NCBI GenBank assembly: GCA_022710975.1
Contig: JAKLGA010000002.1
Coordinates: forward strand, 496,001-560,000
Source of the DNA: Myxococcota bacterium
Lineage (GTDB): Bacteria > Myxococcota > B64-G9
Reading direction: 5' to 3'
DNA length: 64,000 bases
A program made the translations under genes and the position numbers. This document shows positions 9,437-30,102 of the stretch, piece by piece. How positions within the stretch are numbered: the first letter of the stretch is position 1; every line of letters starts with the position of its first letter. Below the pieces are notes generated by a model, which ran no database searches, had not been told where the DNA came from, and was given only the letters and a program-made list of their open reading frames with translations.

Positions 9437-9463
9437 CCTAACGCACCGTAGCAATACAAAAAT

Positions 9464-9491
9464 TGGACAAGCCATTCCGGCCGTGTTAACC
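9464..9491 (+). promoter_or_regulatory. candidate promoter for the 9524 reading frame
   Basis: TGGACA (9464-9469), 16-bp spacer, TTAACC (9486-9491). The -35 matches the consensus at five of six bases; the -10 is weak. The setting is the most AT-rich stretch in the first 30 kb. Confidence 0.4.
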
Positions 9492-9523
9492 TTCGCGGCG
9501 AACCTCGAGCCAGGAGGCGCCGC

Positions 9524-9829
9524 ATGTCCCAACGCGGGGGCCCGGGTCGGATCGCATCTCGCCCTGAGCTGGAGCGTGCGGTGCGCGAGTTCGACCGCGA
9601 CGAGGGCGCGCGCGCGGACGACGCCCTGCTCGAGCTGCAGCGCGCGGCCCTGCTCGCCGAGCTGTCAACCGCCGGGCGGGCTGCCCGCGCTCTCCTCGAG
9701 ACTGGCGGAGGGAGCGGCCCACAGGTGCCGGACGGTGATCTGGCTGGAGAACAGGCAGACCACGCCGAATGCGACCTGCTGCCCGAGCTGGATGGCGTGG
9801 GCCAGGATGGCGTAGGCCACGCCGCTTGA
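9524..9829 (+). CDS. short protein, probably a 3'-truncated gene
   Basis: ATG 9524 has an excellent AGGAGG 6 bp upstream and a candidate promoter. The first 47 codons (to about 9664) have strongly GC-biased third positions and predict an acidic, helical segment (PELERAVREFDRDEGAR, then LLELQRAALLAEL). After 9665 the frame runs antisense through the 3' end of the convergent UPF0104-type gene, third-position bias fades, and the frame ends at 9829. The simplest reading is a gene whose 3' part was lost by rearrangement exactly at the end of its convergent neighbour. A genuine 101-residue overlapping protein is the alternative. No family recognised. Confidence 0.4.
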   Translation: MSQRGGPGRIASRPELERAVREFDRDEGARADDALLELQRAALLAELSTAGRAARALLETGGGSGPQVPDGDLAGEQADHAECDLLPELDGVGQDGVGHAA

Positions 9830-10711
9830 GCCCAGCGTCGCGTCCGCCAGGAACAGCGACAACCCCAGCTTCACGAAGTAGTGGAAGTTGCCCACCATGC
9901 CCGGGCCAGCCGGGATGAGCAGCCCGACGCACAGCACCGCCAGCACGGTGAAGGCCTCGGTCAGCCCCAGGGCGCGCAGGTCGGCGAAGGCGTAGAACAG
10001 CACCCACATGCCCGCGCCGTTCATCGCCCAGTACACCACCGTCAGCCCCAGGAAGCCCAGCACCAGCCGGGCGTCGGGCAGGGCCCGGAGGCCGCCGATG
10101 AAGGCGCGCAGCATCGACACCAGCCGCGCGAGCAGGCGGGGCGGCAGGAAGCCGAAGGCGCGCTGGAACAGGGCCACCGTGCGCTCCTGCTTCCAGTACG
10201 CCAGCACCAGGAAGCCCAGCAGGGCCAGGAAGCCCCCCAGCACCACCCACGACCAGAAGGCCAGGTCGGCCGGCACCTCGACCTTGCCCTCGAGGAAGAA
10301 CAGCAGGCCCACCAGCAGCAGCGCCATGGCCAGCGCGTCCACCACCCGCTCGACCACGATGGTGGCCAGGGCGGCGCTGGCCCGGATCCGGCCGCGCTCG
10401 GCGATCAGGAAGGGGCGGGCGAACTCCCCCAGCCGCAGCGGCAGCAGCACCAGCGCCATGAAGCCCACCGAGGACACGGTGAACAGCTTGCCGAAGCTCA
10501 CCTGGCCGAGCGGCTTGAGCAGGATGCCCCAGCGGTAGACCCGCGAGAGGTGCACCAGGATGAAGATGCCCAGGTAGGCGAGCGGCACGCCCGGATCCAC
10601 GCGCCCCAGCACCTGTCCCACCGCGGCCCAGTCCACGCCGCGGGCGGCCAGCCACACGAACAGCGCGCCCAGCGCGAGGGACACGAGCACCTTGAGGATC
10701 GTGCCGCGCAC
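9665..10711 (-). CDS. UPF0104/YbhN-like lysylphosphatidylglycerol synthase TM-region family protein
   Basis: 348 residues from GTG 10711, with a purine-rich GAGGGGGA upstream. About eight hydrophobic segments span the length, beginning ILKVLVSLALGALFVWLAA and including FMALVLLPLRLGEFARP, which is the characteristic conserved loop of this family (PF03706-like). Family members are inner-membrane proteins resembling the flippase part of MprF; a role in lipid or glycan-carrier transport is plausible. It starts 10 bp after the stop of the CpsB-type phosphatase gene, so the two are co-transcribed, which points to surface polysaccharide or envelope work. The 3' end overlaps the short plus-strand frame at 9524-9829. 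Confidence 0.8.
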   Translation of the reverse strand: MRGTILKVLVSLALGALFVWLAARGVDWAAVGQVLGRVDPGVPLAYLGIFILVHLSRVYRWGILLKPLGQVSFGKLFTVSSVGFMALVLLPLRLGEFARPFLIAERGRIRASAALATIVVERVVDALAMALLLVGLLFFLEGKVEVPADLAFWSWVVLGGFLALLGFLVLAYWKQERTVALFQRAFGFLPPRLLARLVSMLRAFIGGLRALPDARLVLGFLGLTVVYWAMNGAGMWVLFYAFADLRALGLTEAFTVLAVLCVGLLIPAGPGMVGNFHYFVKLGLSLFLADATLGSSGVAYAILAHAIQLGQQVAFGVVCLFSSQITVRHLWAAPSASLEESAGSPPGG

Positions 10712-13383: not shown

Positions 13384-14013
13384 GTGGAACGCGCCGAGCG
13401 ACGCGCCCACCTGCTCCGCTGCGCCCTGGAGGTGTTCGCCGAGAAGGGCTACCACGCGGCCAGCATCAGCGACATCATCTCCCGCGCCAAGGTGGCCCGG
13501 GGCACCTTCTACCTGTACTTCGAGAGCAAGCGCACGGTCTTCGAGCAACTCCTGGACGAGGTGATCGCGGCCATCCAGGCCAAGGTGCGTCGCATCGATC
13601 CCTCGCGCGGCACCGAGGGCGTGCTGGCGCAGCTCGAGGCCAACGTCTACGGCGTGTTCGAGACCCTGCTCGCGGCGCGCTCCACGGCCCGCCTGCTGGT
13701 CAGCCAGGCGGTGGGCCTCGATCCGGCCTTCGACCAGAAGCTGCTCGAGTTCTTCACCAGGCTGCTGGAGCTGCTCGAGCGCTCCCTGGCCACCGGCCAG
13801 CAGATGCACCTGGTGCTGCCCATGGATCGCCGGGTGGCCTCCATGGCCATCCTCGGCTCGATCAAGGAGATCCTCTACCACGTGGCCGTGGGGACCGAGC
13901 TGCCGCCGGGTCCCGCCATGGTGGCCGAGCTGCTGCGCTTCCACGTGCGGGCCCTGTTCGTACCCAGCATCGCCGAGCTGGTGCAGGCCCGCGGAGCGAG
14001 GGGGACGCGATGA
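13384..14013 (+). CDS. TetR/AcrR-family transcriptional regulator
   Basis: 209 residues from GTG 13384. The N-terminal region carries the TetR helix-turn-helix: ALEVFAEKGYHAASISDII, then AKVARGTFYLYFESKRTVF, ending at about residue 53. The C-terminal ligand-binding region is helical and unrelated in detail to any family I can name. Usually a repressor released by a small hydrophobic ligand. Its stop overlaps the start of the next lipoprotein gene (ATGA at 14010-14013), so the two are translationally coupled. No efflux pump gene is adjacent, which is unusual for this family; the regulon cannot be inferred beyond possible autoregulation. Confidence 0.88.
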   Translation: MERAERRAHLLRCALEVFAEKGYHAASISDIISRAKVARGTFYLYFESKRTVFEQLLDEVIAAIQAKVRRIDPSRGTEGVLAQLEANVYGVFETLLAARSTARLLVSQAVGLDPAFDQKLLEFFTRLLELLERSLATGQQMHLVLPMDRRVASMAILGSIKEILYHVAVGTELPPGPAMVAELLRFHVRALFVPSIAELVQARGARGTR

Positions 14014-14711
14014 CGCACGCACGGGCGCTCTGGCTGCTGCCGGGCCTGGCCGGTCTGGCGCTGCTGGCGGGCGGCTGCACGCAGGACCTGTCCAAGGCCG
14101 TGGACGAGTTCGTCGGCTTCAGCGAGGGCAAGACCAAGGACGCGCTGAAGCCCGAGGTCAAGCGCGAGTACAGCCTGCGGAGCTGGGAGGAGGACGTGCG
14201 CGAGGGCCGCTCGCGCGCCCGGGTGGACGTCGAGGTGGCGCCCGAGGCGGACGCCGAGCAGGTCGAGGGCTGGCTGCGGGACGCCTGCCACGACGACAAG
14301 CTGCTGCGCAAGACCTCCGTCGTGCGGGTGCGCGCCTGGCCCGGGAAGCTCCAGGCGCTCGGGCACCCCTACGGAGACTGCACCTTCGCCCGCGACGGCC
14401 GCGGCTGGAACGGGACCGGGGTCGGCTTCGAGGAGATCCGCGTGTTCCTGCCGCGGGCGAGCGAGCTGGCCCAGGCCGGGCTCGAGCCGCTGGACGAGGA
14501 GACCTACCTGATCGTGCTGGGCGTGGACAACATGCTGAAGCGCAAGGCAGCGCGCGAGGTGGCCGTCGAGCAGGTGGCCGAGCGCCACGGCATCCCGGTC
14601 TCCAGGGTCCAGTCGGCCCTCACGCAGATCGAGGGGTTGAACGCGGTGCTGCGCGGGAAGGCCGGCCCCGACCGCGACGCCCCGGCCGAGAAGCCGGAGC
14701 CATCCGAGTAG
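14010..14711 (+). CDS. lipoprotein of unknown function
   Basis: 233 residues; start ATG overlaps the TetR stop. Signal peptide with lipobox LLAGGC (Cys24). The mature domain is mixed alpha/beta and charged, with EDVREGRSRARVDVEV followed by a Cys-containing helix (WLRDACHDDK) and DCTFARDG, so one disulfide is possible. The C-terminal 40 residues are rich in Ala, Pro and Glu. No family recognised. Its stop is 1 bp from the 3' end of the convergent gene at 14713, with no room for a separate terminator. Confidence 0.65.
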   Translation: MTHARALWLLPGLAGLALLAGGCTQDLSKAVDEFVGFSEGKTKDALKPEVKREYSLRSWEEDVREGRSRARVDVEVAPEADAEQVEGWLRDACHDDKLLRKTSVVRVRAWPGKLQALGHPYGDCTFARDGRGWNGTGVGFEEIRVFLPRASELAQAGLEPLDEETYLIVLGVDNMLKRKAAREVAVEQVAERHGIPVSRVQSALTQIEGLNAVLRGKAGPDRDAPAEKPEPSE

Positions 14712-14712
14712 C

Positions 14713-15747
14713 CTAGAAGTCGTCCTCGGTCCAGTCCTCGGCCTTGGCCTCGGGCTTGGCGCCGGACTTCTTCTCGGCCGGCTTGTCCTCGGCCTGGGGG
14801 CCCAGCAGCACCGAGACGGGCAGCAGCTCGACCAGGTCGATCTCGGCCAGGTAGGTGTCGTCGTTCTTCTCGCCCAGCAGGACCGAGGTGATCTTGAGCT
14901 CCAGGCTGGTGATGTTGCGCTTGTCCACGGTGAAGTAGCGCATCACCGGCTGGTTGGTGAAGCTCAGCTCCACCCGGTCGCCGTACAGCCCCAGGCCCAG
15001 GTCCTCGCCCAGGTCCACGTCGCTATCCGCGTCGTAGCGATCCTGGGCGGTCTCGACGGTGACCTCGGCCCGGTGGATGCGGTTGGAGTCGACCCACTGG
15101 CGCTTGCCGCGGAAGTCCCCGTGCAGTACGCCGATCAGCGCCAGGTGGACGGGCTTCTTGAAGGTCAGGGTGATGGACTCGTCCACCCCGGTGCCGTCCG
15201 CGCCCTCGGCCCAGGAGGTCTTCAGATCGCCGTCGAAGACGTTGGCGGCGGCCGCGCCGCCGCCCTTCAGCGTCGAGCTGGCCTTGATCTCCAGGCCGTC
15301 GAACGGTCCGCCCGGGTCCCCGCGCAGGAAGAAGTCCTTGCCGCGCTCGAGCAGCTTCGGGGTCTGCTGGTCGCCGGTGGCGGTCTTGCGCACCAGGTCG
15401 AGCTGCAACCCCCCACCCTTCAGCGCCACCTTGCGGGGGAAGACCTTGTCGAACATCGCGCACCAGGCCACCCGGTAGCCGTCCGCCGACGGGCTCAGCA
15501 CCAGCACGCCGCCACGCTGATCCACGGCGTCCTCGGGCTCGCGGAAGGCGACCAGCACCTCGCCGCGGCCGTCCCCGTCCAGATCGCCGTGCGCCACGTC
15601 GGTCACCACGTGGCGCTGGGTGATGCCGCGGAAGGGCTGCGACTTCTTGTAGGCGTCGTCGCCGTCCCCGGCAGCCGCCGGGGGAGGCAGGGCGAGCGCC
15701 GCGCAGAGCCCGAAAAGCGGCGCGAAGAGATGTCTCCGGCAGCGCAC
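14713..15747 (-). CDS. secreted protein with NADase-type glycan-binding (discoidin-like) domain
   Basis: 344 residues from GTG 15747. Sec signal peptide ending PPPAAAG (about residue 27), no lipobox. Near residues 52-66, HGDLDGDGRGEVLVA is an FG-GAP/dockerin-like calcium-binding loop. Residues about 153-290 (IKASSTL, then VFDGDLKTSWAEG and ITLTFKKPV) match the discoidin-like NADase-type glycan-binding domain. The C-terminal tail is Lys/Glu-rich and ends WTEDDF. It is probably exported and binds carbohydrate; target unknown. It lies just downstream of cheB but has its own strong promoter overlapping the cheB stop, so it is not necessarily part of the chemosensory system. Confidence 0.7.
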   Translation of the reverse strand: MRCRRHLFAPLFGLCAALALPPPAAAGDGDDAYKKSQPFRGITQRHVVTDVAHGDLDGDGRGEVLVAFREPEDAVDQRGGVLVLSPSADGYRVAWCAMFDKVFPRKVALKGGGLQLDLVRKTATGDQQTPKLLERGKDFFLRGDPGGPFDGLEIKASSTLKGGGAAAANVFDGDLKTSWAEGADGTGVDESITLTFKKPVHLALIGVLHGDFRGKRQWVDSNRIHRAEVTVETAQDRYDADSDVDLGEDLGLGLYGDRVELSFTNQPVMRYFTVDKRNITSLELKITSVLLGEKNDDTYLAEIDLVELLPVSVLLGPQAEDKPAEKKSGAKPEAKAEDWTEDDF

Positions 15748-15813
15748 CTTGGCATGCTCCCGCGCGGGCGACCCCGCGGGGTCCCCGCTGTTTCTCGGTC
15801 CTGTTCCGAGGGC

Positions 15814-15843
15814 ATGCTACGGCAGCCCCCCGACAACTGTCAA
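15814..15843 (-). promoter_or_regulatory. strong promoter overlapping the cheB stop codon
   Basis: On the minus strand, TTGACA (15838-15843, perfect consensus), 18-bp spacer, TAGCAT (15814-15819). The TGA of cheB (15840-15842) lies inside the -35 hexamer. Confidence 0.7.
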
Positions 15844-16946
15844 TGTTTTTGCCTGGTTCCGTCGGTCTGACGGCGCGCGAGCTCGTCGGCGAAGGCGCGG
15901 ATCTCGGAGGCCAGCTCGTCCAGCCTGCGGATGCGATCCACCGCCCCGGTGTCGATGGCCTCCCGCGGCATGCCGAAGATGACGGCGGTCTCCTCGGACT
16001 CGGCCAGGGTCCGGCCGCCGGCCGCCCTGACCTGGATGATCCCCTCCCGGCCGTCGGCGCCCATGCCGGTCATCAGGATGGCCAGGGTGCGCTCCCGCGC
16101 GCAGGCGGCCGCCGACAGGAACAGGGCGTCGATCGAGGGGACGTACAGGGCCCTGGAGTCCGGGCTGACTGGCCGCACGACCGCGCGCAGCACGCCGGCC
16201 TCCAGGCGCACGCTCAGGTGGTGGCCGCCAGGGGCCACCAGCACCTGGCCGGCGTCCACCGGGTCCCCGTCGCTGGCCTCCTTCACCCGCAGGGCCACCG
16301 CCCGGTGGAGCCGCTCGGCGAAGGCCCGGGTGAAGCCGGGCGGCATGTGCTGGGCGACCAGGAAGGCGAGCGGCACGTCGGCGGGCAGGTCGCGCAGTAC
16401 CGCCTGGAGGGCCGGCGGGCCCCCGGTGGACGCGCCGAGCACCACCAGGCCCAGCGGCGGGGCGCCCGGCGCGGCTTTCGGGCCGCTCTCGACCGGCTGG
16501 GGCGGAGGCGCGGCCGGGCGCGGCGCCGCGGGCCGCAGGGCGCGGACCAGGTTGATCTTGTCCAGCAGCTCGGCCTGGATGGCGATCAGCTCGGCCGTGG
16601 CGCCCACCCCCGGCTTGGCCACGAAGTCCAGCGCGCCCAGCTCCAGCGCGCGGAAGACGTTCTGCTGCTGGCTGTGGGAGCTGACCACCACGACCGGCGT
16701 GGGCAGCCGTGACATGAGCAGGCGCAGGAAGGTGAAGCCGTCCATGCGCGGCATCTCCAGGTCCAGGGTGATCACGTCCGGCCGGAGCAGCAGCGCGTCG
16801 CGCAGCGCCTCCTCGCCGTTCGAGGCCCGGCCGACCACCTCGACCTCGGGGCTGGCCTCCAGCATGCCGGCGATGGTCTGGCGGTTGTAGGCCGAGTCGT
16901 CCACCACCAGCACGCGCAGCCGGCGATCGCGGGGCGCGGCGCTCAC
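15840..16946 (-). CDS. cheB: CheB protein-glutamate methylesterase/deamidase
   Basis: 368 residues from GTG 16946, overlapping the cheR stop as GTGA. The N-terminal receiver has acidic pocket VVDDSAYNR and phosphoacceptor Asp62 (LDLEMPRMDG), with conserved Lys in FVAKPG. A Pro/Ala linker (about 138-163) leads to the methylesterase domain, whose catalytic triad is visible: Ser173 (GASTGG), His200 (VAQHMPPGFT) and Asp298 (GMGADG). It demethylates or deamidates receptor glutamates, opposing CheR, and is activated by CheA phosphotransfer. It is the last gene of the minus-strand chemosensory operon. All key residues are present, so it should be functional. Confidence 0.95.
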   Translation of the reverse strand: MSAAPRDRRLRVLVVDDSAYNRQTIAGMLEASPEVEVVGRASNGEEALRDALLLRPDVITLDLEMPRMDGFTFLRLLMSRLPTPVVVVSSHSQQQNVFRALELGALDFVAKPGVGATAELIAIQAELLDKINLVRALRPAAPRPAAPPPQPVESGPKAAPGAPPLGLVVLGASTGGPPALQAVLRDLPADVPLAFLVAQHMPPGFTRAFAERLHRAVALRVKEASDGDPVDAGQVLVAPGGHHLSVRLEAGVLRAVVRPVSPDSRALYVPSIDALFLSAAACARERTLAILMTGMGADGREGIIQVRAAGGRTLAESEETAVIFGMPREAIDTGAVDRIRRLDELASEIRAFADELARRQTDGTRQKH

Positions 16947-17845
16947 GGCAGCCTCCCGTCCGCTTCGCCGCCGTCCGGCCGGCGGTAGACCATGTCGTTC
17001 TTCAGGTGCACCAGCTCGAAGTCGGTGCTCACGTGCATCAGCGACTCGGAGTGCCCGAGCAGCAGGTAGCCGCGCGGCTGGAGCTTGTCGTAGAAGGAGT
17101 GCAGGACACTCAACCGCGCCGGCTTGTCGAAGTAGATCAGCACGTTGCGGCAGAAGATGGCGTCCACCCGGCCGACGAGCTGCAGCATCTCCTCGTCCAG
17201 CAGGTTGAGCTGGCCGAAGCTGACCATGGCGCGCAGCGAGGCCTCCACCTGGAAGCGGTCGCCCACCGGCTGGAAGTACCGCCGCAGGTAGAAGGGCTCC
17301 AGGCGCCGGAAGGACGAGCGGCTGTAGATGCCCTTGCGGGCCACCTGCAGCACGCGCCGTGAGATGTCGTTGCCGAAGATCTCCACGTCCCAGCCGACCG
17401 CCCGGGGCTCCTCGCGCACCAGCATGGCGATGGTGTAGGCCTCCTCGCCCGTGGAGCAGCCGGCCGACCACAGCCTGAGCCGGCGCTCGGCCCTGCGCCG
17501 CTCGAGCAGCTCGGGCAGGATCTCCTCCGAGAAGGCCCGGAGCTGGTAGTCCTCCCGGAAGAAGTAGGTCTCGTTGGTCGTCAGCAGCTCGATGATCTCC
17601 TCGAGCTCCACGCGGCGCTTGGCGTGGTACCGCAGGTGGCGGTGGTACTCGGTGAAGGACGGCAGGCCCAGCTCCTCGAGCCGCCCCTGCAGCCGCCGCT
17701 CGAGCAGGTAGGTCACGTCGTCCTGGAAGAAGATGCCGCAGTACGCGTGCACGATGTCCCGGATGATCCGGAACTCCTCCCGGTTCATCTCGACGCGCGG
17801 GCGAGCGAGCGGCGCGCCCCCCGAAGGCGGAGGCGCCTCATGCAT
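16943..17845 (-). CDS. cheR: CheR chemoreceptor methyltransferase
   Basis: 300 residues from ATG 17845, which overlaps the 3' end of the HEAT gene by 8 bp. The N-terminal helical domain (about 20-95, ending TTNETYFFRE) and the SAM-binding Rossmann domain with LWSAGCSTGEEAYT, IFGNDISRRVL, FGQLNLL and IFCRNVLIYFD are all typical. Methylates specific glutamates of the receptor for adaptation. There is no C-terminal TPR extension as seen in FrzF, so it is the short form. Its place between the HEAT protein and CheB makes an adaptation module for the operon's single receptor. Confidence 0.95.
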   Translation of the reverse strand: MHEAPPPSGGAPLARPRVEMNREEFRIIRDIVHAYCGIFFQDDVTYLLERRLQGRLEELGLPSFTEYHRHLRYHAKRRVELEEIIELLTTNETYFFREDYQLRAFSEEILPELLERRRAERRLRLWSAGCSTGEEAYTIAMLVREEPRAVGWDVEIFGNDISRRVLQVARKGIYSRSSFRRLEPFYLRRYFQPVGDRFQVEASLRAMVSFGQLNLLDEEMLQLVGRVDAIFCRNVLIYFDKPARLSVLHSFYDKLQPRGYLLLGHSESLMHVSTDFELVHLKNDMVYRRPDGGEADGRLP

Positions 17846-19865
17846 CCGGCTCCGCCTCCTTGGGCTTGATCAGCTGCTCCATGGCCTCGCGCACCAGCGC
17901 GTCCTGCTCCTCGGCCAGCCGGCCGGCCGCCGTCTGCAGCAGGACCGGATCGCGCAGCGTGCCCACCTTGTGGACGGCCGCCATGCGCACGTCCCAGCGC
18001 GCGTCGCTGAGCGCCGCGAACAGCGCCGTGCGCGCCGCGGGCAGGGGCCAGCGCTCGCACGCGCGCAGCGCCTCCTTGGCCACCTCGGCGTCGCTGTGGC
18101 GGCAGGCCAGCAGCCAGGCCTCGGTGTGGTTGCCCCAGCCCAGCCGGTTGAGCGCGCGCACCGCCTCGAGCGCCACCGCGCCATCCGCGCGCGCGGCGAA
18201 GGGCACGAGCTGCTCGGGGGCGACGCCGCTGCCCTCGGCCGAGAGCCCGGCCAGGGCCTCGTGCACCACCCAGGTGTCGGCGTCCCCGAGCGCCACCCGC
18301 AGGGCCTCGGCCGCCTCCGGGCCCGTGCGCCCCCCCAGCGCCCTGGCCGCCGTGGCGCGCACCTCGGGCTGCTCGTCGGCCAGGGCCCGGCGCAGGCGCT
18401 CGAGCACCTCGGGCCCCCCCACCCTGCCCAGCGCGCCCACCGCCAGCGCGCGGGTGCGCGGATCTCCCTGGGTCGCCAGCAGGGTGATCTGCGGCACGTC
18501 CGCGCGCCGTGCCATGGCGCACAGGACCATGGCGGCGTCCGCGCGGGCCTTCTCCTCGCCGCCCTCGAGCAGCGGCAGGATGGCGGCGCGCACCTCGCCG
18601 TGGAAACGCTCGGCCAGCCGGCCCAGGGCGGTCACGGCGCCCTGGCTGCCGACCTCGCCGCTGCGCCCGAGCAGACCGGCCAGGGCCGCCACGGCCTTCG
18701 GGCTGCCGATCGCACCCAGCGCGCGCTGGGCGGCGGCGGCCACCTCGGAGTCCTCGTGCAAGCACAGCTCCACGAGGCGCGGCAGGCACTCGGCCTGCCC
18801 GAACTGTCCCAGCGCCTCGATGGCCACGCCCAGCGCCGCGCGCCCCAGCGAGTCCAGGTACTCCAGCAGCGACGGGCTCACGCCCGGGCCGAGCGCCAGC
18901 AGCGCCTCCAGGGCGCGATCGCGCAGGCCCGGCTCCTCGGAGGCCTCCAGGGCCACGTGCAGCACCTCGGGCCGGCCGGTCCAGCCGAGCAGGCGCAGGG
19001 CCGCCGCGCGCACCTGGGGCTCCTCGGCGCCCACCATCTCCCCGAGGCGCTCGAAGATCTGGCCGTCGGAGCGCGCGGCCACCAGCCGCTGCAGCCTCGC
19101 GCGGCCCTCGGCGCCCGCGCGTTGCCAGCGGTCGTCGAGCGCCAGCGCGGCCGAGCCGCGCTCCACCCGCCCGCGCGCCACCAGGCCGTCGAGCAGCATG
19201 GCCTCCGCCTCGGGGGCCGGGCAGCGCCCCAGCAGCCGGCCGAGCTGCGCCCTGAGCGGACGCACGCCCGCGAGCCCGCGCAGGGCCTCCCAGGGCACCT
19301 CGGCGCCCAACCGGTCGAGCGCGTCCAGGGCCGCGATCTGCAGCTGCAGCTCGCCAGAGCCCAGCGCGCCGACCAGGTGCTCCAGGGCGCGCGCGTCCCC
19401 CAGGCGGCCGAGGGCCTCGGCCGCGGCGGCGCGCACGTTGCCGTCACCGTCGGCCAGGCGGGCCACCAGGGGCTCCAGCGCCCGGGCATCGCCAATCTCG
19501 CCCAGGATGTCGGCGGCGAACTTGCGCACGTCGGCGTCGGCGCCGGCCAGCGACCCCAGCAGGCCGTCCAGGGCGGGCGCGCCCAGGCGCACCAGCACCT
19601 CGGTGGCCGCGTTGCGCAGGCCGGCGTTGTCCTCCGAGGCCAGACAGCCGAGCAGCCCTCCGACCAGCTCCGCGCTGGCCGGGGCGGAGGCGAGCTGATC
19701 GCCGGCCGCCTTGCGCACGCGCCAGCTCGTGTCCCCGAGCGCCCGCAGGAGCGGGGCCAGGGGCGGCGTCTCGAACTCCGCCAGCCGGCGCACGGCCGCG
19801 TGCCGGATCTCCTCGATCGTGCTGTCCAGGGCGGCCAGCACCCTCTCCTGCTCCTGCGGTTTCAT
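17838..19865 (-). CDS. large HEAT-repeat protein within the chemosensory operon
   Basis: 675 residues from ATG 19865, overlapping the receptor stop as ATGA. The sequence is an almost unbroken solenoid of roughly 20 HEAT/PBS-lyase-like repeats of 30-32 residues, with recurring units such as ALGRLGDARALEHL, VRAAAAEALGRLG and VRKFAADILGEIGDA. No signal peptide, membrane span or catalytic motif, so it is probably a cytosolic scaffold. Translation is coupled to the receptor upstream and CheR downstream, implying fixed stoichiometry with the signalling array. HEAT proteins have, to my recollection, been reported in at least one Myxococcus xanthus chemosensory cluster; direct homology is not established here. 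Confidence 0.85.
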   Translation of the reverse strand: MKPQEQERVLAALDSTIEEIRHAAVRRLAEFETPPLAPLLRALGDTSWRVRKAAGDQLASAPASAELVGGLLGCLASEDNAGLRNAATEVLVRLGAPALDGLLGSLAGADADVRKFAADILGEIGDARALEPLVARLADGDGNVRAAAAEALGRLGDARALEHLVGALGSGELQLQIAALDALDRLGAEVPWEALRGLAGVRPLRAQLGRLLGRCPAPEAEAMLLDGLVARGRVERGSAALALDDRWQRAGAEGRARLQRLVAARSDGQIFERLGEMVGAEEPQVRAAALRLLGWTGRPEVLHVALEASEEPGLRDRALEALLALGPGVSPSLLEYLDSLGRAALGVAIEALGQFGQAECLPRLVELCLHEDSEVAAAAQRALGAIGSPKAVAALAGLLGRSGEVGSQGAVTALGRLAERFHGEVRAAILPLLEGGEEKARADAAMVLCAMARRADVPQITLLATQGDPRTRALAVGALGRVGGPEVLERLRRALADEQPEVRATAARALGGRTGPEAAEALRVALGDADTWVVHEALAGLSAEGSGVAPEQLVPFAARADGAVALEAVRALNRLGWGNHTEAWLLACRHSDAEVAKEALRACERWPLPAARTALFAALSDARWDVRMAAVHKVGTLRDPVLLQTAAGRLAEEQDALVREAMEQLIKPKEAEPDA

Positions 19866-22411
19866 GCCTTGGGCTCCCCCTCCCGCTGCAGCCTGCCCAG
19901 CCAGGCGCGCAGCGTCGCCAGGGCCTCCTTCAGGCGAGCGAGGCTCTCCATCGCGTCGAGCACCACGGCGCTCTCCTGGGACTGGGAGTCGCGCAGCTCC
20001 TCGGCCGCCTCGGCCACGTGGCTGACCCCCTGGCCCTGCTCGCTCATGGCCTTGGCGATGAAGCCGACCATCTCGTTCATGCGCTCCATGTTGCCGGCCA
20101 CGCCGGAGACGGCCTGGACCTGCTCGCTGGCGCTGCGGCCGATGAAGCGGGCGTCCTCGCGCATCTGCTCGGAGGTCCGATCCACGCGGGCGGTGGCCAG
20201 GGTCTGCTCCTCCATGGCCCGGCGGATGTCGCGCACCATGCTGGAGATCTCCCCCATGGACTGGGTGATGCGATGGGCCAGCTGGGTGTGCTCGCTGGTG
20301 TTGCGCGCCACCTCGCCGGTCCGCGCGCTCACCTGGGCCACGGCGGACTGGATCTGCGCCAGGGCCAGCCCGGCGTTCTGGGCCACCTGGGCGCCACGCC
20401 GCACCGTGCTGGTGCCGCGCTCGATGGCCTCCATGGCCATGCGCGAGTCGGCCTGGACGGTCTTGATGAGCGCGGCGATCTCCTTGGTCGAGGTGGCCGT
20501 CCGATCGGCGAGATCCTTGATCTCGTCGGCCACCACCCCGAAGGCACGGCCGTGCTCGCCGGCCGCGGCGGCGATGATGGCGGCGTTCAGCGCCAGCAGG
20601 TTGGTCTTCTCGGCCACGTCGCCGATCACCACCAGGATCTTGCCCACCTCGTCCATGCGCGTGCCCAGGCGGTGGATGACCTGGCGGGCCTCCTCGGTCA
20701 CCTTCTGGATCTCCTCGATGCCCACGATGGTCTCGCGCACCGACTGCACGCCCCGGCCGGCGGTGTCCGCCACGCCGTGGGTCAGCTCACGCGTCTCGCG
20801 CGTGGTCCCCTCGACCTGGCGGATGGCCGCGTCCATCAGCCCGATGGCGCCGACGGCGTCGGTGGCGCGGCGGGCGAGGTCCTCCACGTGCCCGGCCACC
20901 TCCTGGACGGAGCGCGCGATCTCGCGCATGGCCGAGGCGGTGTCGTCCATCATGCCCTGGAAGCTGGAGGCCGAGCCGGACACCTCGCGCACGCTCTGAT
21001 CGATCTCCATCAGCGCCGATGAGCAGTCCGAGGCCGAGCCGCGCAGGGCCTCCACCTGTTCGGTGATGCCCTGGATGGCGGAGCGCATCTCGATCACCGA
21101 GCTGGCCGTCTTCTCCGCGCTGGCCTGGCGCCCCTCGCCGCCCTGCCGCAGCCGGTCGAGGGGAGCCTGGCAGGCGACCATGCGCGCCTCGAGCTGCCCC
21201 AGCGCCTGGTGGCCGTCGGCGGCCAGGGTGCGCAGGTGCCCGCTCAGGCCGGCCACCGCCCGCTGCAGCTCGGCCACCTCGCCCTGCCCGCCCGCCACCA
21301 GCCCGGCATCCAGGTTGCCCTCCGAGGCCCGGCGCACCCGCTGGGTCAGATCGGTGAGCGGGCGCAGGCCCGAGGCGGTCACCGACCACATGAGCAGCAG
21401 GCCGAGCGCGGCCATCAGGCCGACGCCAAGCAGGATGGGCGGCAGCAGGCCGAGCGGGCCGCGGTTGACCTCCTCCACGTCTCCCACCCACACCAGCAGC
21501 CGCTGCTCGGTCAGCGGCCGGGCCAGGAACAGGAACGGCGCCTGCAGCTCCAGCCAGCTCCGCGCCTTCAGCGCGACGATGCGCTGCAGCCAGGTCTTGT
21601 CGGCGCGCACCTGGCCCGCCAGCACCTGGCCGCGGGCGCCGAGCACCAGCAGCTGGGTCCGGAGCTGCTGGCTGGAGAGGAGCTGCTCGAGGGCCGCGCC
21701 CGGCTCCAGATCGGGGCTCTTGCGCAGCAGGCCCTCGAGCTCCCGCTGCGCGCGCTCGACCGCGCCGTACCTGGCCGCCAGGAGCTCGTCCGCGCGCTGC
21801 AGCCGGAGGCGGCTGAGGACGATGGCGCCGAGCCCGCCCAGGCCGATCAGCGTCACCGCCAGCGCCGCGGCCGTCAGGCGCCGCGACAGGTGGCCGAAGG
21901 GCGCGCGCCAGCCCTCCCCGGGCGGCAGCAGGGCCTCCAGGCGGACGCGCAGCCCGGCCACCAGGCGGGTGTTGGCGCTGTAGCGCAGCAGCATGTCGGC
22001 CAGGGCGCCGGCCAGGCCCAGGTAGGCCAGCAGGTAGATCTGCCAGCCGTCCAGGCCAAACAACAGCGCCAGTAGCGCCACGGCGATCAGCGTCCCCAGG
22101 GTCCACAGCAGCAGCGAGGTGGCGCCGTCGCGGAAGGCGAACACGTCGAGCCCCCCCAGGGCCCGGCGCACCGAGGTCGGCTTGGCCTCCTCTCCGGCCG
22201 CGCGGCCGAGCAGCTTCGCGGCCGGCTCGAGCATCCAGCGCACCAGCCGGGTCTGCAGGAAGAACATGGGCGCGGCCAGGACGACGACGATCAGCGCGGC
22301 CCACAGGAAGATCCTCTCCAGGGCGCCGGACAGCAGGGCCACCAGGATGATGGTCGCGAGCGCCGACGAGAGCGCCAGCAGGTGGGCCCGCCTGTACTCC
22401 ATGACTTGCAT
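19862..22411 (-). CDS. methyl-accepting chemotaxis protein with multi-span N-terminus
   Basis: 849 residues from ATG 22411 (GTGGAG upstream; extensions into cheW rejected). The first 210 residues hold about five hydrophobic spans, not the usual one. A roughly 110-residue, probably periplasmic segment follows, then a further span (GLLPPILLGVGLMAALGLLL) and a HAMP-like stretch. The cytoplasmic signalling domain is long. Its hairpin tip near residue 610 reads EKTNLLALNAAI then IAAAAGEHGRAFGVVADEI: the usual Glu and Arg of IEAARAGE are replaced by Ile and Ala. The ligand is unknown. It is the only receptor in the operon. The C-terminus (EGEPKA) lacks a CheR-docking pentapeptide. Confidence 0.92.
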   Translation of the reverse strand: MQVMEYRRAHLLALSSALATIILVALLSGALERIFLWAALIVVVLAAPMFFLQTRLVRWMLEPAAKLLGRAAGEEAKPTSVRRALGGLDVFAFRDGATSLLLWTLGTLIAVALLALLFGLDGWQIYLLAYLGLAGALADMLLRYSANTRLVAGLRVRLEALLPPGEGWRAPFGHLSRRLTAAALAVTLIGLGGLGAIVLSRLRLQRADELLAARYGAVERAQRELEGLLRKSPDLEPGAALEQLLSSQQLRTQLLVLGARGQVLAGQVRADKTWLQRIVALKARSWLELQAPFLFLARPLTEQRLLVWVGDVEEVNRGPLGLLPPILLGVGLMAALGLLLMWSVTASGLRPLTDLTQRVRRASEGNLDAGLVAGGQGEVAELQRAVAGLSGHLRTLAADGHQALGQLEARMVACQAPLDRLRQGGEGRQASAEKTASSVIEMRSAIQGITEQVEALRGSASDCSSALMEIDQSVREVSGSASSFQGMMDDTASAMREIARSVQEVAGHVEDLARRATDAVGAIGLMDAAIRQVEGTTRETRELTHGVADTAGRGVQSVRETIVGIEEIQKVTEEARQVIHRLGTRMDEVGKILVVIGDVAEKTNLLALNAAIIAAAAGEHGRAFGVVADEIKDLADRTATSTKEIAALIKTVQADSRMAMEAIERGTSTVRRGAQVAQNAGLALAQIQSAVAQVSARTGEVARNTSEHTQLAHRITQSMGEISSMVRDIRRAMEEQTLATARVDRTSEQMREDARFIGRSASEQVQAVSGVAGNMERMNEMVGFIAKAMSEQGQGVSHVAEAAEELRDSQSQESAVVLDAMESLARLKEALATLRAWLGRLQREGEPKA

Positions 22412-22427
22412 CCGGTTTTTCTCCACG

Positions 22428-22946
22428 TCAGGCCTCGTCGCCGCGCCGGTCGTCGGGACCCGCCGGCGGGCTGTTGTCTCCCTCATCCCGGGAGAAGAAG
22501 GCCGGGCTCAGCACCCGCTTGAGGTTGAGCAGCAGCAGCAGCCGGTCGTGGTGCTGGCAGACCCCCAGGACGAGCCCGGGCTCCTGCCCCGCCCGCAGCC
22601 GCGGGGAGGGCCGGATCTGGCTGGACGGCAGGCGCACCACCTCCAGCACCTCGTCCACGCGGAAGCCCACCAGCTGGTTCTGCACCACGCAGATGACCAG
22701 CTTGGTGCGCTGGTGGTCCGCCAGGGCCGGCAGGCCCAGCCGGCTGCGCAGATCGACCACGGGGATGATCGCCCCGCGCAGGTTGAGCACGCCCTCCAGC
22801 AGGCCGGTGGCGTCCGGCACGGGCGTCAGCTTGGGCGGCCGGATGATCTCCCGGATGCGCATGATGTCGATGGCGTAGTCCTCGCTGCCCAGCCGGAAGG
22901 AGGCCAGCTGCACCAGGCTCGTCGGGTTGCCCGCCGGATCCGCCAT
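22428..22946 (-). CDS. cheW: CheW-like coupling protein (second copy)
   Basis: 172 residues from ATG 22946 with GAGGGG 8 bp upstream; a GTG at 22955 overlapping the previous stop (GTGA) is the alternative start. A single CheW domain: FRLGSEDYAIDIMRIREII, then LNLRGAIIPVVDLRSRLGL and LVGFRVDEVLEVV. The C-terminal 20 residues are charged and disordered-looking. Couples the receptor to CheA. It sits between the other CheW-like gene and the receptor, 16 bp before the receptor start. Having two different CheW proteins in one operon suggests distinct array positions, for example a ring or cap component; that is inference. Confidence 0.92.
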   Translation of the reverse strand: MADPAGNPTSLVQLASFRLGSEDYAIDIMRIREIIRPPKLTPVPDATGLLEGVLNLRGAIIPVVDLRSRLGLPALADHQRTKLVICVVQNQLVGFRVDEVLEVVRLPSSQIRPSPRLRAGQEPGLVLGVCQHHDRLLLLLNLKRVLSPAFFSRDEGDNSPPAGPDDRRGDEA

Positions 22947-22951
22947 GCCGC

Positions 22952-23581
22952 TCACCCCTCGGGCGACAGGACCGCGTGGTCCTGCCGCCGGCGTACGAAA
23001 CGATCGGCCGCCAACGCGGCGTGCAGGTCGAGCAGGGCCACGATCTCGTCGTCCTTCCGGCCCACGCCCATGACCGGCTCGACCTCGGGCCGCGCCCCGA
23101 ACGGGTGCGCCTCGATGTCGGCCTCGCCCAGCCGCAGGACGTGGTGCACCTCGTCCACCAGCAGGCCCACCAGCTCGCCGCCGCGCATGTAGACCAGCAC
23201 GCGCGAGCGCCGCGTCTGCGGGCTGGCCGGCTGCCGGAGCAGCATGCGCAGGTCCACCACCGGCACGATCGTGCCGCGCAGCGACAGCACGCCCAGGACA
23301 AAGGGCTCGGTGCGGGGCACCCGGGTGATCAGCGGCACCTTGATGATCTCGCGGATCTGGGCGATGGGCAGCGCGAAACGTTCCTCCGCCAGGCGGAAGC
23401 TCAGGTACTCCAGCACCCCGGCGCCGGTGTCGCCGCGCGCCTCGCCGAGCTCGCCCAGGCCCAGATCGCCGGCGTCCAGCTCCTCCGGATCGGCGAAGAA
23501 GTCGCGCAGGGCCGTCTCCAGGGCGGCCTGGGCCCTGGCACCGCCCGGCCGGCGGCGGGTGCGCTCGTCCGCGGGGCTCAC
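22952..23581 (-). CDS. cheW: CheW-like coupling protein with N-terminal extension (first copy)
   Basis: 209 residues from GTG 23581, overlapping the cheA stop as GTGA. The first 55 residues are an acidic, Ala/Gly/Arg-rich extension (RDFFADPEELDAGDLG) absent from ordinary CheW. The CheW domain follows: YLSFRLAEERFALPIAQIREII, LSLRGTIVPVVDLRMLL and LVGLLVDEVHHVL. The extension could be a partner-binding or regulatory tail. It is directly downstream of cheA and upstream of the shorter CheW gene, and probably links CheA into the array. Confidence 0.92.
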   Translation of the reverse strand: MSPADERTRRRPGGARAQAALETALRDFFADPEELDAGDLGLGELGEARGDTGAGVLEYLSFRLAEERFALPIAQIREIIKVPLITRVPRTEPFVLGVLSLRGTIVPVVDLRMLLRQPASPQTRRSRVLVYMRGGELVGLLVDEVHHVLRLGEADIEAHPFGARPEVEPVMGVGRKDDEIVALLDLHAALAADRFVRRRQDHAVLSPEG

Positions 23582-25740
23582 GCTTGCCTCCCCATGTCGC
23601 CGAGCCGGGCTTCCTGGATGAGGGAGCCCACGTCCAGCACGAGGATGGTCTGCTGGCCCGCCAGGTTGGTGGCCCCGGCGATGCCCGGCACCTGGGCCAG
23701 CGAGGGGCCCAGGGCCTTGATGACGATGTCCTGCTGCCCGATCAGCCCGTCCACCACGATGCCCAGCCTGTTCTCGGCCAGGCCCACCACCACCACCTTG
23801 GTCTGGCCGTCCTCGCTGGGGGGCGCCGCCGGCAGCTCGAACAGCTCCTGCAGCCTCAGCAGCGGCAGCGTCGTGCCGCGCAGCTCCAGCACCTCGCGGC
23901 GGTCGAGGGTGCGCACGCGCTGCCCTGCCACCTCCAGGATCTCGATGACCGAGCTGAGCGGGATGGCGTAGATCTCCTCGCTGGTGCGCACCAGCAGGGC
24001 GCGGATGATGGCCAGCGTGATGGGCAGGGTGAGCAGCAGGCGGGTGCCCTGGCCCGGGACCGAGTGCATGTCGATCATCCCGCGCAGGTTGGCGATGTTG
24101 GTCTTGACGACGTCGAGGCCCACGCCGCGGCCCGACAGCTCGCTGACCTGGTCGGAGGTGGAGAAGCCCGGCAGGAACAGCAGGTTGAGCAGCTCCCGCT
24201 CGCTGAGCTCCGCGGCCCGCTCCCCGTCCACCAGGCCCCGCTCCATGGCCTTGGCCCGCACCCGGTCCAGATCCACGCCCCGCCCGTCGTCGGCCACCTC
24301 GATCACCACGTGGTTGCCCTTCTGGTAGGCGTCGATGCGGATCACCCCGGTCTCGCTCTTGCCCGCTGCGCGGCGCTCGGCCGGCGACTCCAGGCCGTGG
24401 TCGAGGGCGTTGCGCAGGATGTGCATCAGCGGGTCGGCCAGATCCTCGACGATCAGCTTGTCCAGCTCGGTGTCCGCGCCGCTCAACCGCAGCTCGACCT
24501 CCTTGCCGGCGGTGCGGGAGAGCTTGCGCACCATGCGCGAGAGCTTCTCGAAGTTCTGCCCCAGCGGCACCATGCGCACCTCCATGATGCCCGCCTGCAG
24601 CTCGTCCAGCCGGCGGCTGAAGGTGCGCGCCGCCTTGAACAGATCCACCGCCAGCCCGCTGAAGCCCTGCTCGGCCTTGAGCTGCTCGGAGATGGCCTGC
24701 ATGGCCGTGCGCACCAGGACCATCTCGCCCACGATGTTCATCAGGGAGTCGAGCTTCTTGATGTCCACGCGCACGGTCTGGCTGACGCTGCGCAGGCTCA
24801 CCGCGGCCAGGTCGGCCGGCGCCGGGGCGCGCTGCTCCGCGCCCTCGCCCTCGCCCTCGGCCTCGGCCTCCGCCCCGCCCGCCGCCGGCGGCGCGGCCGG
24901 GCGCGCGCGGCCCGGCGCGGGGGCCGGGGTGGCTGGAGGCGCGGGCAGATCGCGCAGCGTCGGCCGGCCCTGGGCGTCCCGGCGCGGGATGCGCTCCACG
25001 CGCGCCTCGAACGGCCGCACCAGGGCCTCGAGCTCCGCGGGCTCCATGCGCGCGCCCACCAGCAGGTCGAAGTCGATGGCCTGATCGTCGGCCGGGGCGG
25101 AGCTGGGCAGGGTGGAGATGAGCTCGCCGGCCGTCTTCAGCACGCTGGTCAGCTTGGCCAGGTGCTCGTCGAAGGACATCAGATCGAACGAGGCGCGCAC
25201 CCTGAAGAGATCCATGCCCCGCCGGATGTTGTCGACCAGCCGGTACTCCTCGTACTCGGTCAGCACGCCCAGCATGGCCGGCTCGAGCTCGACCAGCTCG
25301 AGCGGGTTGTCCTCCGCCCTGGCGCGCGCGCTCTCCAGGAGCTTCTCGAGCTGCTTCTTCAGCCCGGTCACCGTCCGCTTGGCCACCTTGGCGCCGCCGC
25401 TGGCCTCGACGATGAGCTGGTTGAAGAGCTCCACCGACTCGAACAGCAGGTCCAGCACCTCGGGCTCGATCGCCACCCTGCCCATGCGCAGGCCGTCCAG
25501 CAGGCTCTCGAGCGCGTGGGCGAAGTCGGACATGCCGCGCGCGCCGAACATGCCCGCCAGGCCCTTGAGCGAGTGGGCCGAGCGGAAGATGTTGTTGATC
25601 AGCTCGGGCTCGTGCTGGCCGCGCTTGCGGTTGTCGTCCAGCTTGAGCACGTCGCGGTTGAGGTGCTCGATGATCTCCTGGGCCTCGGAGAGGAAGTCCC
25701 CGAGCGCCTTCCCGCCGCTGGCGTCGCCGGGCTCGCTCAT
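23578..25740 (-). CDS. cheA: CheA sensor histidine kinase
   Basis: 720 residues from ATG 25740, overlapping the cheY stop as ATGA. Domains in order: Hpt/P1 with phosphorylatable His56 (FRSAHSLKG); a linker of about 150 residues with a second helical region; a Pro/Ala/Glu-rich disordered stretch (about 270-310); dimerisation P3 (VRVDIKKLDSLMNIVGEMVL); P4 HATPase with NALDHGLESPAERR, VADDGRGVD and GRGVGLDVVKTN; and a CheW-like P5 to the C-terminus. A clear CheY-binding P2 ferredoxin-like domain is not evident, which is unusual for flagellar CheA but common in alternative systems. No receiver is fused. It should phosphorylate the operon's CheY-like protein and CheB. Confidence 0.95.
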   Translation of the reverse strand: MSEPGDASGGKALGDFLSEAQEIIEHLNRDVLKLDDNRKRGQHEPELINNIFRSAHSLKGLAGMFGARGMSDFAHALESLLDGLRMGRVAIEPEVLDLLFESVELFNQLIVEASGGAKVAKRTVTGLKKQLEKLLESARARAEDNPLELVELEPAMLGVLTEYEEYRLVDNIRRGMDLFRVRASFDLMSFDEHLAKLTSVLKTAGELISTLPSSAPADDQAIDFDLLVGARMEPAELEALVRPFEARVERIPRRDAQGRPTLRDLPAPPATPAPAPGRARPAAPPAAGGAEAEAEGEGEGAEQRAPAPADLAAVSLRSVSQTVRVDIKKLDSLMNIVGEMVLVRTAMQAISEQLKAEQGFSGLAVDLFKAARTFSRRLDELQAGIMEVRMVPLGQNFEKLSRMVRKLSRTAGKEVELRLSGADTELDKLIVEDLADPLMHILRNALDHGLESPAERRAAGKSETGVIRIDAYQKGNHVVIEVADDGRGVDLDRVRAKAMERGLVDGERAAELSERELLNLLFLPGFSTSDQVSELSGRGVGLDVVKTNIANLRGMIDMHSVPGQGTRLLLTLPITLAIIRALLVRTSEEIYAIPLSSVIEILEVAGQRVRTLDRREVLELRGTTLPLLRLQELFELPAAPPSEDGQTKVVVVGLAENRLGIVVDGLIGQQDIVIKALGPSLAQVPGIAGATNLAGQQTILVLDVGSLIQEARLGDMGRQA

Positions 25741-26114
25741 GGTCCGCCCTTGAGGTACCGCGTCACCAGCTCCTGCAGCTGCGCAGGATCGAAGGGCTTG
25801 ACCAGGTAGTTGTTGGCGCCCAGGGCCAGCCCCCGCTCGCGGTCGCGCTGGCTGCCCTCGGTGGAGATGACGATCAGCGGGATCTTCGCGTAGCGGTCGT
25901 TCTCGCGGATGAAGCGGATCAGCTCCAGCCCGTTGATGTCCGGCATGTTGATGTCGGTGATGACCAGGTGGAAGGCCCGCCGCGGGAGCTCCTTGAGGGC
26001 CTCGAAGCCCGAGGCGGCCTGGACAGCGCGCACCCCGTCCAGCTCCTCGATCGTCGAGGAGATGAAGGCGCGCATGGAGGCGCTGTCCTCGACCACCAGC
26101 ACGTCGTAGTCCAC
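25737..26114 (-). CDS. cheY: CheY-like single-domain response regulator
   Basis: 125 residues from GTG 26114 with AGGAGG 6 bp upstream; longer in-frame extensions lack support. Complete receiver: acidic pocket Glu9-Asp10 (VVEDSASMR), phosphoacceptor Asp54 (ITDINMPDINGLEL), Ser/Thr pair in VISTEGS (84-85) and Lys106 (NYLVKPF). There is no output domain, so it acts by protein binding. It is the first gene of the operon, directly after the promoter region, and its stop overlaps cheA. No flagellar genes are nearby, so the output may be gliding or type IV pilus motility, or a non-motility function. Confidence 0.95.
   Translation of the reverse strand: MDYDVLVVEDSASMRAFISSTIEELDGVRAVQAASGFEALKELPRRAFHLVITDINMPDINGLELIRFIRENDRYAKIPLIVISTEGSQRDRERGLALGANNYLVKPFDPAQLQELVTRYLKGGP

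Positions 26115-28494: not shown

Positions 28495-28498
<4 letters not shown>
27482..28498 (-). CDS. family 2 glycosyltransferase with C-terminal nucleotide-binding-like domain
   Basis: About 338 residues if translation begins at CTG 28498, which overlaps the upstream stop as CTGA and has GGAGG 10 bp upstream. The first in-frame ATG/GTG/TTG is GTG 28471, and using it would cut through the first beta-strand (PLVSVLLPV). GT2 features: VDDGSRDGS, LARMDADDVCHPERL (DxD) and EDYDLWLRL. After about residue 245, VALWGAGENGRRWARLL and FLDVDRRKIGR form a Rossmann-like segment similar to sugar-modifying or PglD-type N-terminal domains. It transfers a sugar from a nucleotide donor; acceptor unknown. It is coupled to an NtrC-type regulator, an odd pairing. 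Confidence 0.8.
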
Positions 28499-29943
<1,445 letters not shown>

Positions 29944-29999
29944 GCGTCCTCTCGAACCCCCCGCGTCCGCTCCGGATTCCCGCGGGCTCCGCTCCGGCC

Positions 30000-30028
30000 A
30001 CGCTACGAGCCGGACCGCGGGCTGTCAA
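30000..30028 (-). promoter_or_regulatory. promoter of ntrC-like/glycosyltransferase unit
   Basis: On the minus strand, TTGACA (30023-30028, perfect), 17-bp spacer, TAGCGT (30000-30005). The predicted leader is about 50 nt. One of the best promoters in the window. Confidence 0.75.
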
Positions 30029-30040
30029 GCCGGGACGGGG

Positions 30041-30069
30041 TAGGCAGCCGCCCCGCGCCGTGGTACTGT
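30041..30069 (+). promoter_or_regulatory. candidate promoter of MopE-motif lipoprotein
   Basis: TAGGCA (30041-30046), 17-bp spacer, TACTGT (30064-30069), 33 bp before ATG 30103. Moderate match; divergent from the ntrC-like promoter with 12 bp between their -35 boxes. Confidence 0.45.
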
Positions 30070-30102
30070 CGGGTGTCCACAGAACCAGCGCGGAGGACGG
30101 GG

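Follow-up and report, generated by a model that had tools for sequence, protein, structure and literature searches.

Organization of the operon

The window analyzed here, by which we mean the whole 64,000-nucleotide stretch at positions 496,001 to 560,000 of contig JAKLGA010000002.1 from a Myxococcota bacterium (assembly GCA_022710975.1), contains a chemosensory operon of eight genes on the minus strand, which runs from 26114 down to 15840 in the order cheY-cheA-cheW1-cheW2-mcp-HEAT-cheR-cheB. The genes overlap or abut one another and all of the expected Pfam domains are present, with cheA, cheW, cheR and cheB found together. A first-pass annotation of this DNA, made from the sequence alone, had reported the same eight genes, nearly all overlapping, and had drawn attention to a HEAT-repeat solenoid of 675 residues between the receptor and CheR. 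Both the arrangement and the solenoid were borne out: the HEAT gene (17838–19865, minus strand) codes for a 675-residue α-solenoid with a HEAT_2 score of 219 bits in eight stretches and 43 predicted helices.

Overlaps of 4 bp are seen at five junctions (cheY/cheA, cheA/cheW1, cheW1/cheW2, mcp/HEAT and cheR/cheB) and one of 8 bp at the HEAT/cheR junction, so that the HEAT gene overlaps both the receptor gene and cheR exactly as the annotation had claimed. The cheR ATG used here is preceded by AAGGAGG, and a second in-frame ATG lies at 17788. At the cheW2/mcp junction, the first mcp ATG would produce a 59-bp overlap, as against a 16-bp gap with the ATG at 22411, which is preceded by GTGGAG; the latter is the more likely start. 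CheD, CheC and CheZ were not detected by Pfam among the eight operon genes, the whole genome not having been searched for them, nor was a CheF (DUF439) domain found among these eight genes. That the operon is an artefact of long spurious open reading frames in DNA of 75% GC is ruled out by the strong domain matches and the conserved neighbours.

Linkage of the HEAT gene with cheR across genomes

The annotation had suggested a search for HEAT genes next to cheR in other genomes, which was carried out on three samples. In a set of 39 relatives, a long HEAT match (at least 95 bits) is present in 22, and a CheR of the operon type (at least 236 bits, the next best scoring 169) is present in the same 22. 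In every one of these 22 loci cheR is the next gene after HEAT, in the same orientation, and cheB comes next in 21 of them, the contig ending in the other. The mcp gene lies directly 5' of HEAT in 9/9 genomes of the window's family that were searched; within this family the HEAT ortholog scores 411–1386 bits, against at most 37 bits for the other HEAT matches of the same genomes, among the matches listed.

The second sample comprises 146 Myxococcota genomes, in which the CheR type (E ≤1e-58) was detected in 92, HEAT (E ≤1e-80) in 89 and both in 87; many of these genomes belong to one family (f8, M. xanthus's own), so that the counts are not independent of kinship, and a Fisher test on them, which takes no account of this, does not yield a true probability. 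The two genes are adjacent on one strand in 85 of the 87 genomes with both, with -32 to +109 bases between the matches. All nine exceptions to the pairing lie at contig ends: a partial HEAT match precedes cheR at the contig end in G073, G110 and G081, as does a weak partial one in G139; a partial cheR follows HEAT in G121; in G069 and G143 the contig stops no more than about 220 bases from cheR, and in G045 it stops inside HEAT; and in G085 the HEAT match reaches the last base of its contig, with cheR beginning 146 bases into another. Thus, no intact neighbourhood of this CheR type without HEAT was found among the 146 genomes, and the absence of HEAT from the orthologous operons of relatives, which the annotation had named as the outcome that would speak against its proposal, did not occur.

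A wider scan, with one genome per species, recovered 206 relatives, of which the best 80 were used. These loci were collected via HEAT and hence test adjacency, not co-occurrence; they span the Myxococcota, Desulfuromonadales (including Geobacter and Geotalea), Nitrospirota, one Schekmanbacteria and one Blastocatellia record, among others. cheR lies downstream on the same strand in 76 of the 80, and the contig ends in the other four (L048, L069, L104, L107). HEAT stands directly 5' of cheR no matter whether its other neighbour is mcp, CheW or another gene, some lineages beyond the window's also carrying mcp genes before HEAT. The distance from the HEAT stop to the nearest possible cheR start is at most 60 bases in 95 of 98 loci (some genomes being counted twice), and no HEAT-CheR fusion occurs in these 98 loci.

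A general HEAT-CheR neighbourhood is ruled out by ten control CheR loci of other kinds (L158–L165, L002, L003), none of which has a HEAT match within its 1.5 kb flanks. However, the lineage of the present operon, identified below as that of M. xanthus Che8 and the Geobacter beta group, is not alone in this association: HEAT is likewise a neighbour of CheR in the Che7 cluster of M. xanthus and in another cluster of Geobacter (L128, with the order cheR-HEAT-cheR). The next-best HEAT matches of Geobacter sp. AOG1 have che neighbours as well: one is flanked by the two cheR genes of L128 (6022–9558), and another adjoins an mcp gene (L120, 1900–3715). Locus L079 has, downstream of the main cluster, a further mcp and then a further HEAT match (13660–16527).

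The presence of the gene across the relatives, the 146 Myxococcota genomes and other phyla rules out a lineage-specific insertion. One may still ask if the HEAT protein is merely co-transcribed and performs a housekeeping job unrelated to signalling, given that HEAT proteins are common in these genomes, with many weak matches per genome. This we regard as very improbable: both presence and linkage follow the system across the 146 Myxococcota genomes, the linkage holds in other phyla, and the ortholog is set apart from the remaining HEAT proteins of the same genomes by the above-mentioned gap in score. The HEAT gene adjoins this CheR type wherever the contig suffices, in the 146 genomes as in the 39 relatives. 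Hence it is part of the system, as the annotation had held, and a constant core component of the Che8/beta-group lineage as opposed to a peculiarity of one genome.

Descent from the Che8/beta-group lineage

A maximum-likelihood tree of CheR (101 rows, midpoint root) recovers an 84-row clade with support of 96/97, which holds the window together with M. xanthus Che8 (L114) and Geobacter (L116). The Che7 CheR (L117) falls outside this clade, and the Blastocatellia CheR groups with it, apart from the window's lineage. Long-branch warnings were raised mostly for rows outside the 84-row clade; the divergent CheR of G028, which lies inside, is among the longest. Locus L090 of M. xanthus AM003 can be equated with Che8 because its gene order matches and its CheA of 862 residues has the length listed for CheA8 in the table of Moine et al. 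2014. Judged by this tree, the operon is a member of the Che8/beta-group lineage by descent and represents a variant of a cluster type already known.

Tran et al. 2008 introduced the beta group for Geobacter and further deltaproteobacteria, M. xanthus among them. They described it as lacking an mcp gene and mentioned unpublished signs of extracellular matrix regulation. The A. dehalogenans genome paper (PMC2330069) describes M. xanthus che8 as conserved both in that species and in G. sulfurreducens. Like the beta group, Corallococcus Che8 is stated to be without an MCP. The window's operon shares with these clusters the CheR clade, the order cheY-cheA-cheW-cheW-..-HEAT-cheR-cheB and the placement of HEAT directly before cheR, the last being absent from those parts of the published description available; the same kind of receptor tip (see below) is present in the M. 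xanthus and Geobacter genomes. With its mcp gene (19862–22486) between cheW2 and HEAT, however, it breaks the published "no mcp" description. Further, the Geobacter cluster has an AAA ATPase between cheA and cheW which the window lacks; in the cluster of Geobacter sp. AOG1 (L053) this ATPase lies at 6358–7158, and a protein combining a zinc ribbon with a receiver (8925–9956) precedes HEAT.

The main texts of Tran et al. 2008 and Moine et al. 2014 do not contain the word HEAT, and no published study of the Che8/beta-group HEAT gene was found in the passages available, subscription papers and supplementary files lying outside that search. For Che7, association with a HEAT-repeat protein is described in a 2022 paper, which also gives the function of Che8 as unidentified. 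The cluster type was thus already in print in 2008, and Che7 was already known to have a HEAT partner, which makes the novelty of the operon lower than the first-pass annotation implied.

Some functional evidence comes from the Geobacter branch. Deletion of GSU2220 (CheW) and GSU2222 (CheA), i.e., esnB/esnC, severely impairs growth on electrodes; both genes are dispensable for Fe(III) oxide reduction, and a diguanylate cyclase has been proposed to act downstream (Chan et al. 2017). To go by their CheW-ATPase-CheA order, which may be compared with that of L053, these genes appear to belong to the beta-group cluster, and this branch of the lineage appears to control electrode colonisation.

Comparison with Che7 was made by means of the window-family HEAT profile, under which the second-best M. 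xanthus match scores 251.7 bits and the third 82.5. The second-best gene sits in a cluster of the order cheY-cheA-cheW-mcp-HEAT-cheR-cheB, the Che7 order, and by comparison with the che7 gene order given in Moine et al. 2014 we infer that it is Cpc7. As in the window, the HEAT gene of Che7 stands beside both the receptor and cheR. In contrast to the window, Che7 has one CheW instead of two, a CheR in a different clade, a canonical receptor tip (NASIEAARAGE against NAAIIAAAAGE) and a HEAT protein of 788 residues with 31% identity to the window's over the matched stretch. Additionally, its CheW of 148 residues, with the domain at 4–141 (Moine et al. 2014), leaves no room for an extension such as that of the window's cheW1. 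The comparison with the M. xanthus clusters urged by the annotation therefore yields a HEAT gene in both Che8 and Che7, the latter with a CheR from outside the clade.

Fold and conservation of the HEAT protein

The AlphaFold2 model of the HEAT protein (70-row alignment) is a continuous all-helical solenoid of 43 helices, with a pLDDT of 95.2 and a pTM of 0.82. Because the best 50 Foldseek matches of this model are all generic solenoids (CAND1, karyopherin, SF3b, alphaRep, PP2A), no function can be assigned by fold search; likewise, no NCBIfam model matches the protein at or above its cut-off. Conservation over 70 sequences peaks at residues 76–150, including K115, R84, N85 and N143. Several of the invariant arginines of the protein are ordinary consensus residues of HEAT repeats; W48, K115, N85 and N143 are not obviously so. 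Distance-matrix partial correlations of HEAT with the other operon proteins over 42 loci are 0.27 for CheA, 0.20 for CheR, 0.12 for CheW2, 0.12 for CheB and -0.02 for CheY, with a subsample spread of 0.09–0.19; these values do not single out a partner of HEAT.

The receptor and its unusual tip

The receptor gene (mcp, 19862–22486, minus strand) codes for at most 874 residues, or for 849 if translation starts at 22411, and combines six N-terminal spans with an MCP signalling domain. The annotation had counted about five spans; hydropathy instead gives six, at approximately residues 36–54, 59–77, 125–143, 149–167, 206–224 and 347–365, with about 120 residues between the last two. The hairpin tip of the signalling domain reads NAAIIAAAAGE (20555–20587), as against the canonical form NAAxEAARAGE. 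Receptors inside related clusters display the pattern NA(A/S)I(I/L)AA(Q/A/G/R)AG(E/D), whereas the Che7-type and several other clusters have the canonical form with EAAR. The unusual tip is thus distinguished by a hydrophobic residue, mostly isoleucine, in place of the usual glutamate, and by the replacement of the arginine, mostly by glutamine or alanine, although the arginine is kept in some matches (L104).

A strict DNA pattern for this tip matches 20 of the 39 relatives, all of them among the 22 with the HEAT cluster. A looser pattern, applied to the strict-negative genomes and not to the 20 strict positives, adds the other two of the 22 (G021 and G038) and returns two matches in the remaining 17 genomes (G013 and G028); it also matches M. 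xanthus, Geobacter and Archangium. The match in G013 is not in a receptor frame and was dropped from the count. That in G028 lies in a receptor, and this genome carries a divergent cheA-cheW-cheW-HEAT-cheR-cheB cluster which fell below the HEAT and CheR thresholds in both the 39-relative and the 146-genome searches. With G028 counted, the unusual tip is present in 23/23 genomes with such a cluster and in 0/16 without one.

The host genome has eight PF00015 matches in seven proteins. Three of these receptors carry the NAAIIAA tip, namely that of the operon and two encoded outside it (G000:C3:27407-27438 and G000:C5:221283-221314). The two latter may, on account of the common tip, feed the operon's system. 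The three proteins end in GEPKA, ERFKL and AGFDV, none of which is an aromatic pentapeptide. Among the four further PF00015 proteins, one has a canonical tip, and the search expression gave no tip match in the remaining three.

The two altered tip positions correspond to E385 and R388 of Tsr, which form an ionic lock between dimers in ordinary receptors. Their alteration suggests that receptor packing may differ in the tip-type receptors, and the unusual tip could simply belong to receptor class 40H.

CheA, the CheW1 extension and the question of a scaffold

The cheA gene (23578–25740, minus strand) codes for 720 residues comprising an Hpt domain, a predicted ferredoxin-like domain, the dimerisation and ATPase regions and a CheW domain, without a receiver. 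The annotation had stated that this CheA lacks an obvious P2 domain, which is correct insofar as residues 120–262 (24955–25383) match no Pfam model, P2 included. However, the P2 position is filled by a conserved domain of the predicted order β-α-β-β-α-β, for which AlphaFold2 yields a ferredoxin-like fold (pLDDT 87.1, 50-row alignment), with the motif TEYEExRL invariant in the 50 rows. The best Foldseek matches of this model are MgtC-C/ACT-like and no CheA P2 is found among the best 50; known P2 domains share the general ferredoxin-like topology.

The cheW1 gene (22952–23581, minus strand; 209 residues) has a 57-residue N-terminal extension (23411–23581) that contains the sequence LRDFFADPEE. 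The extension is close to the 55 residues given in the annotation, but with 12 D/E and 7 K/R it is only mildly acidic. In 63 loci an FF pattern is seen in the extension of 21 and a DPLxxL pattern in that of 16, with neither in 26; at least one of the FF matches (L059) appears to lie in the CheW core rather than the extension. The second CheW (22428–22955, minus strand; 175 residues) is recognized by Pfam.

These features bear on the proposal of a structural scaffolding role in the array for the HEAT protein, which would bridge the receptors, the CheW1 extension and CheA in an unusual geometry. It would accommodate the co-occurrence of the cluster with receptors lacking the usual tip glutamate in the 39 relatives, the recurrence of a short motif in the CheW1 extension, the highly conserved stretch at residues 76–150 with K115, R84, N85 and N143, and the fact that the highest of the partial correlations is that with CheA. 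As opposed to this, many of the conserved arginines are those of the HEAT-repeat consensus, Che7 possesses a HEAT protein although its CheW has no extension, and a contact between the CheW1 motif and HEAT would be hypothetical. We therefore consider a scaffold doubtful. Equally speculative is the broader thought that Che8/beta-group systems build a structurally different array, in which the Glu-Arg lock, the link between dimers within the trimers of ordinary arrays, has been lost and the HEAT solenoid, bridging receptors, CheA and the motif-bearing CheW extension, would supply part of the packing.

Host genome and surroundings of the operon

The host genome (7.13 Mb in 29 contigs, 98.63% complete) contains three CheR matches and ten matches to PF00437 ATPases of the type IV pilus/type II secretion type. 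Flagellin_N has no match anywhere in this 98.63% complete genome, in agreement with the absence of flagellar genes noted in the annotation; the chemosensory system here is non-flagellar.

The gene next after cheB codes for a protein with an F5/8-type (NADase_transloc) domain (14713–15747), a homolog of which occurs in the relative locus L034 at 15279–16487. There, cheB is followed by a GAF-domain gene (14071–14907) and a second cheY (14948–15295), and only then by the homolog of the F5/8-type protein. Unlike L034, the window has neither the GAF gene nor the second cheY between cheB and the F5/8-type gene, the rest of the genome not having been searched for them. A GAF-domain protein between cheB and a second cheY is also seen in L053 (13956–14780). 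On the other side of the operon, slightly upstream, a probable NtrC-type σ54 response regulator was recognized by eye (28495–29943, minus strand). A long open reading frame on the plus strand (28774–33828), whose true start is probably further in than listed, contains repeated Asp-rich motifs such as DADGDGFVEEECGGDDCDD and by eye resembles a large secreted protein.

Proposed role of the HEAT protein

The two remaining genes downstream of HEAT code for the adaptation enzymes: cheR (16943–17845, minus strand) for a protein of 300 residues and cheB (15840–16946, minus strand) for one of 368 residues with receiver and methylesterase domains. Since HEAT stands directly 5' of cheR irrespective of what lies on its other side, one reading is that it recruits CheR, and perhaps CheB with it, to receptors that lack a C-terminal pentapeptide tether, as an in-trans counterpart of the role proposed for the TPR domain in CheR-TPR fusions. 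Such fusions (WspC, FrzF; alternative cellular function pathways) likewise couple a repeat domain to CheR in non-flagellar pathways; they differ in that the window's repeat protein is separate and a larger HEAT protein, its CheR having no TPR domain (Pfam). The above-noted C-termini of the three tip-type receptors would fit this reading, as would the HEAT-CheR partial correlation of 0.20 and the statement that the group C CheRs of Geobacter, which go with 40H/44H receptors or mcp-less clusters, are probably independent of the pentapeptide (Tran et al. 2008), should the beta-group CheRs belong to that group C. However, receptor methylation without any tether is thought to occur in many bacteria (Tran et al. 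2008), and HEAT and CheR are not fused in any of the 98 loci. Further, the Che7 HEAT gene lies beside cheR in the same way, yet its reported partner is CheY7. On balance CheR recruitment appears unlikely, though we rank it second, ahead of a scaffold.

We place first, with about even confidence, the reading that the HEAT protein is an output adaptor for CheY. The receptor dimers together with CheW1, CheW2 and CheA would form the signalling (kinase) complex, whose receptors would be adapted by CheR and CheB. The output would be carried by CheY (25737–26114, minus strand; GTG start after AGGAGG), a 125-residue single-domain response regulator (Response_reg, 95.5 bits) and the sole free-standing one of the operon. 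The HEAT protein would then be the constant docking protein of the lineage on the output side, binding CheY in a phosphorylation-dependent manner and relaying the signal to a target such as the pilus, matrix, second-messenger or gene-regulation machinery; for the output one would naturally think of matrix, pili, cyclic dinucleotides or gene regulation. We infer the binding of CheY, its dependence on phosphorylation and the output, as well as any direct contact with CheR or the receptor.

This preference for an output adaptor derives from analogy with two systems. According to a 2024 review (citing Darnell et al. 2014), Cpc7 has CheY7, a single-domain regulator, as its interaction partner and plays a regulatory part in development. 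In Halobacterium, the HEAT_PBS protein OE2401F acts at the step from CheY to the flagellum: it interacts both with CheD and with a CheF protein, and in its absence the Che system is decoupled from the flagellum (Schlesner et al. 2009). Like the window's protein, the latter is a HEAT-repeat protein of a che region; it is needed for Che output, and it differs in being archaeal, in lying beside CheF (DUF439) and in acting on the flagellum. Gene order cannot decide the role of HEAT, given that Che7 has the same order.

Several observations weigh against an output adaptor. If anything, the distance-matrix comparison does not favour CheY, at -0.02, though the subsample spread of 0.09–0.19 should be borne in mind, and the HEAT gene adjoins cheR-cheB instead of cheY. 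As far as has been shown, the haloarchaeal protein is related to the window's only as a HEAT protein. Pull-downs with the M. xanthus orphan regulator MXAN_4468 recover CheA8 as well as CheA7, and deletion of either cheA alters groESL transcription, the account ascribing no role to HEAT; hence, the Che8 output may run via a regulator outside the operon. The annotation's picture of an alternative-function array with a dedicated scaffold therefore stands in part: HEAT belongs to a non-flagellar system, whereas the precedent of Cpc7 points to CheY7 and the scaffold is kept as a hypothesis.

Implications

As a general part of a known cluster type, the HEAT gene turns what looked like an odd gene in one operon into a testable rule, namely that a dedicated HEAT protein goes with CheR across a lineage that reaches from the Myxococcota to the Desulfuromonadales and Nitrospirota. 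Further, among the relatives that were compared, the HEAT-CheR cluster is accompanied by receptors whose tip lacks the usual glutamate. No published test of the HEAT gene was found in the accessible literature, and the gene offers a handle on M. xanthus Che8 and on the Geobacter branch of the lineage, both of them in genetically tractable hosts.

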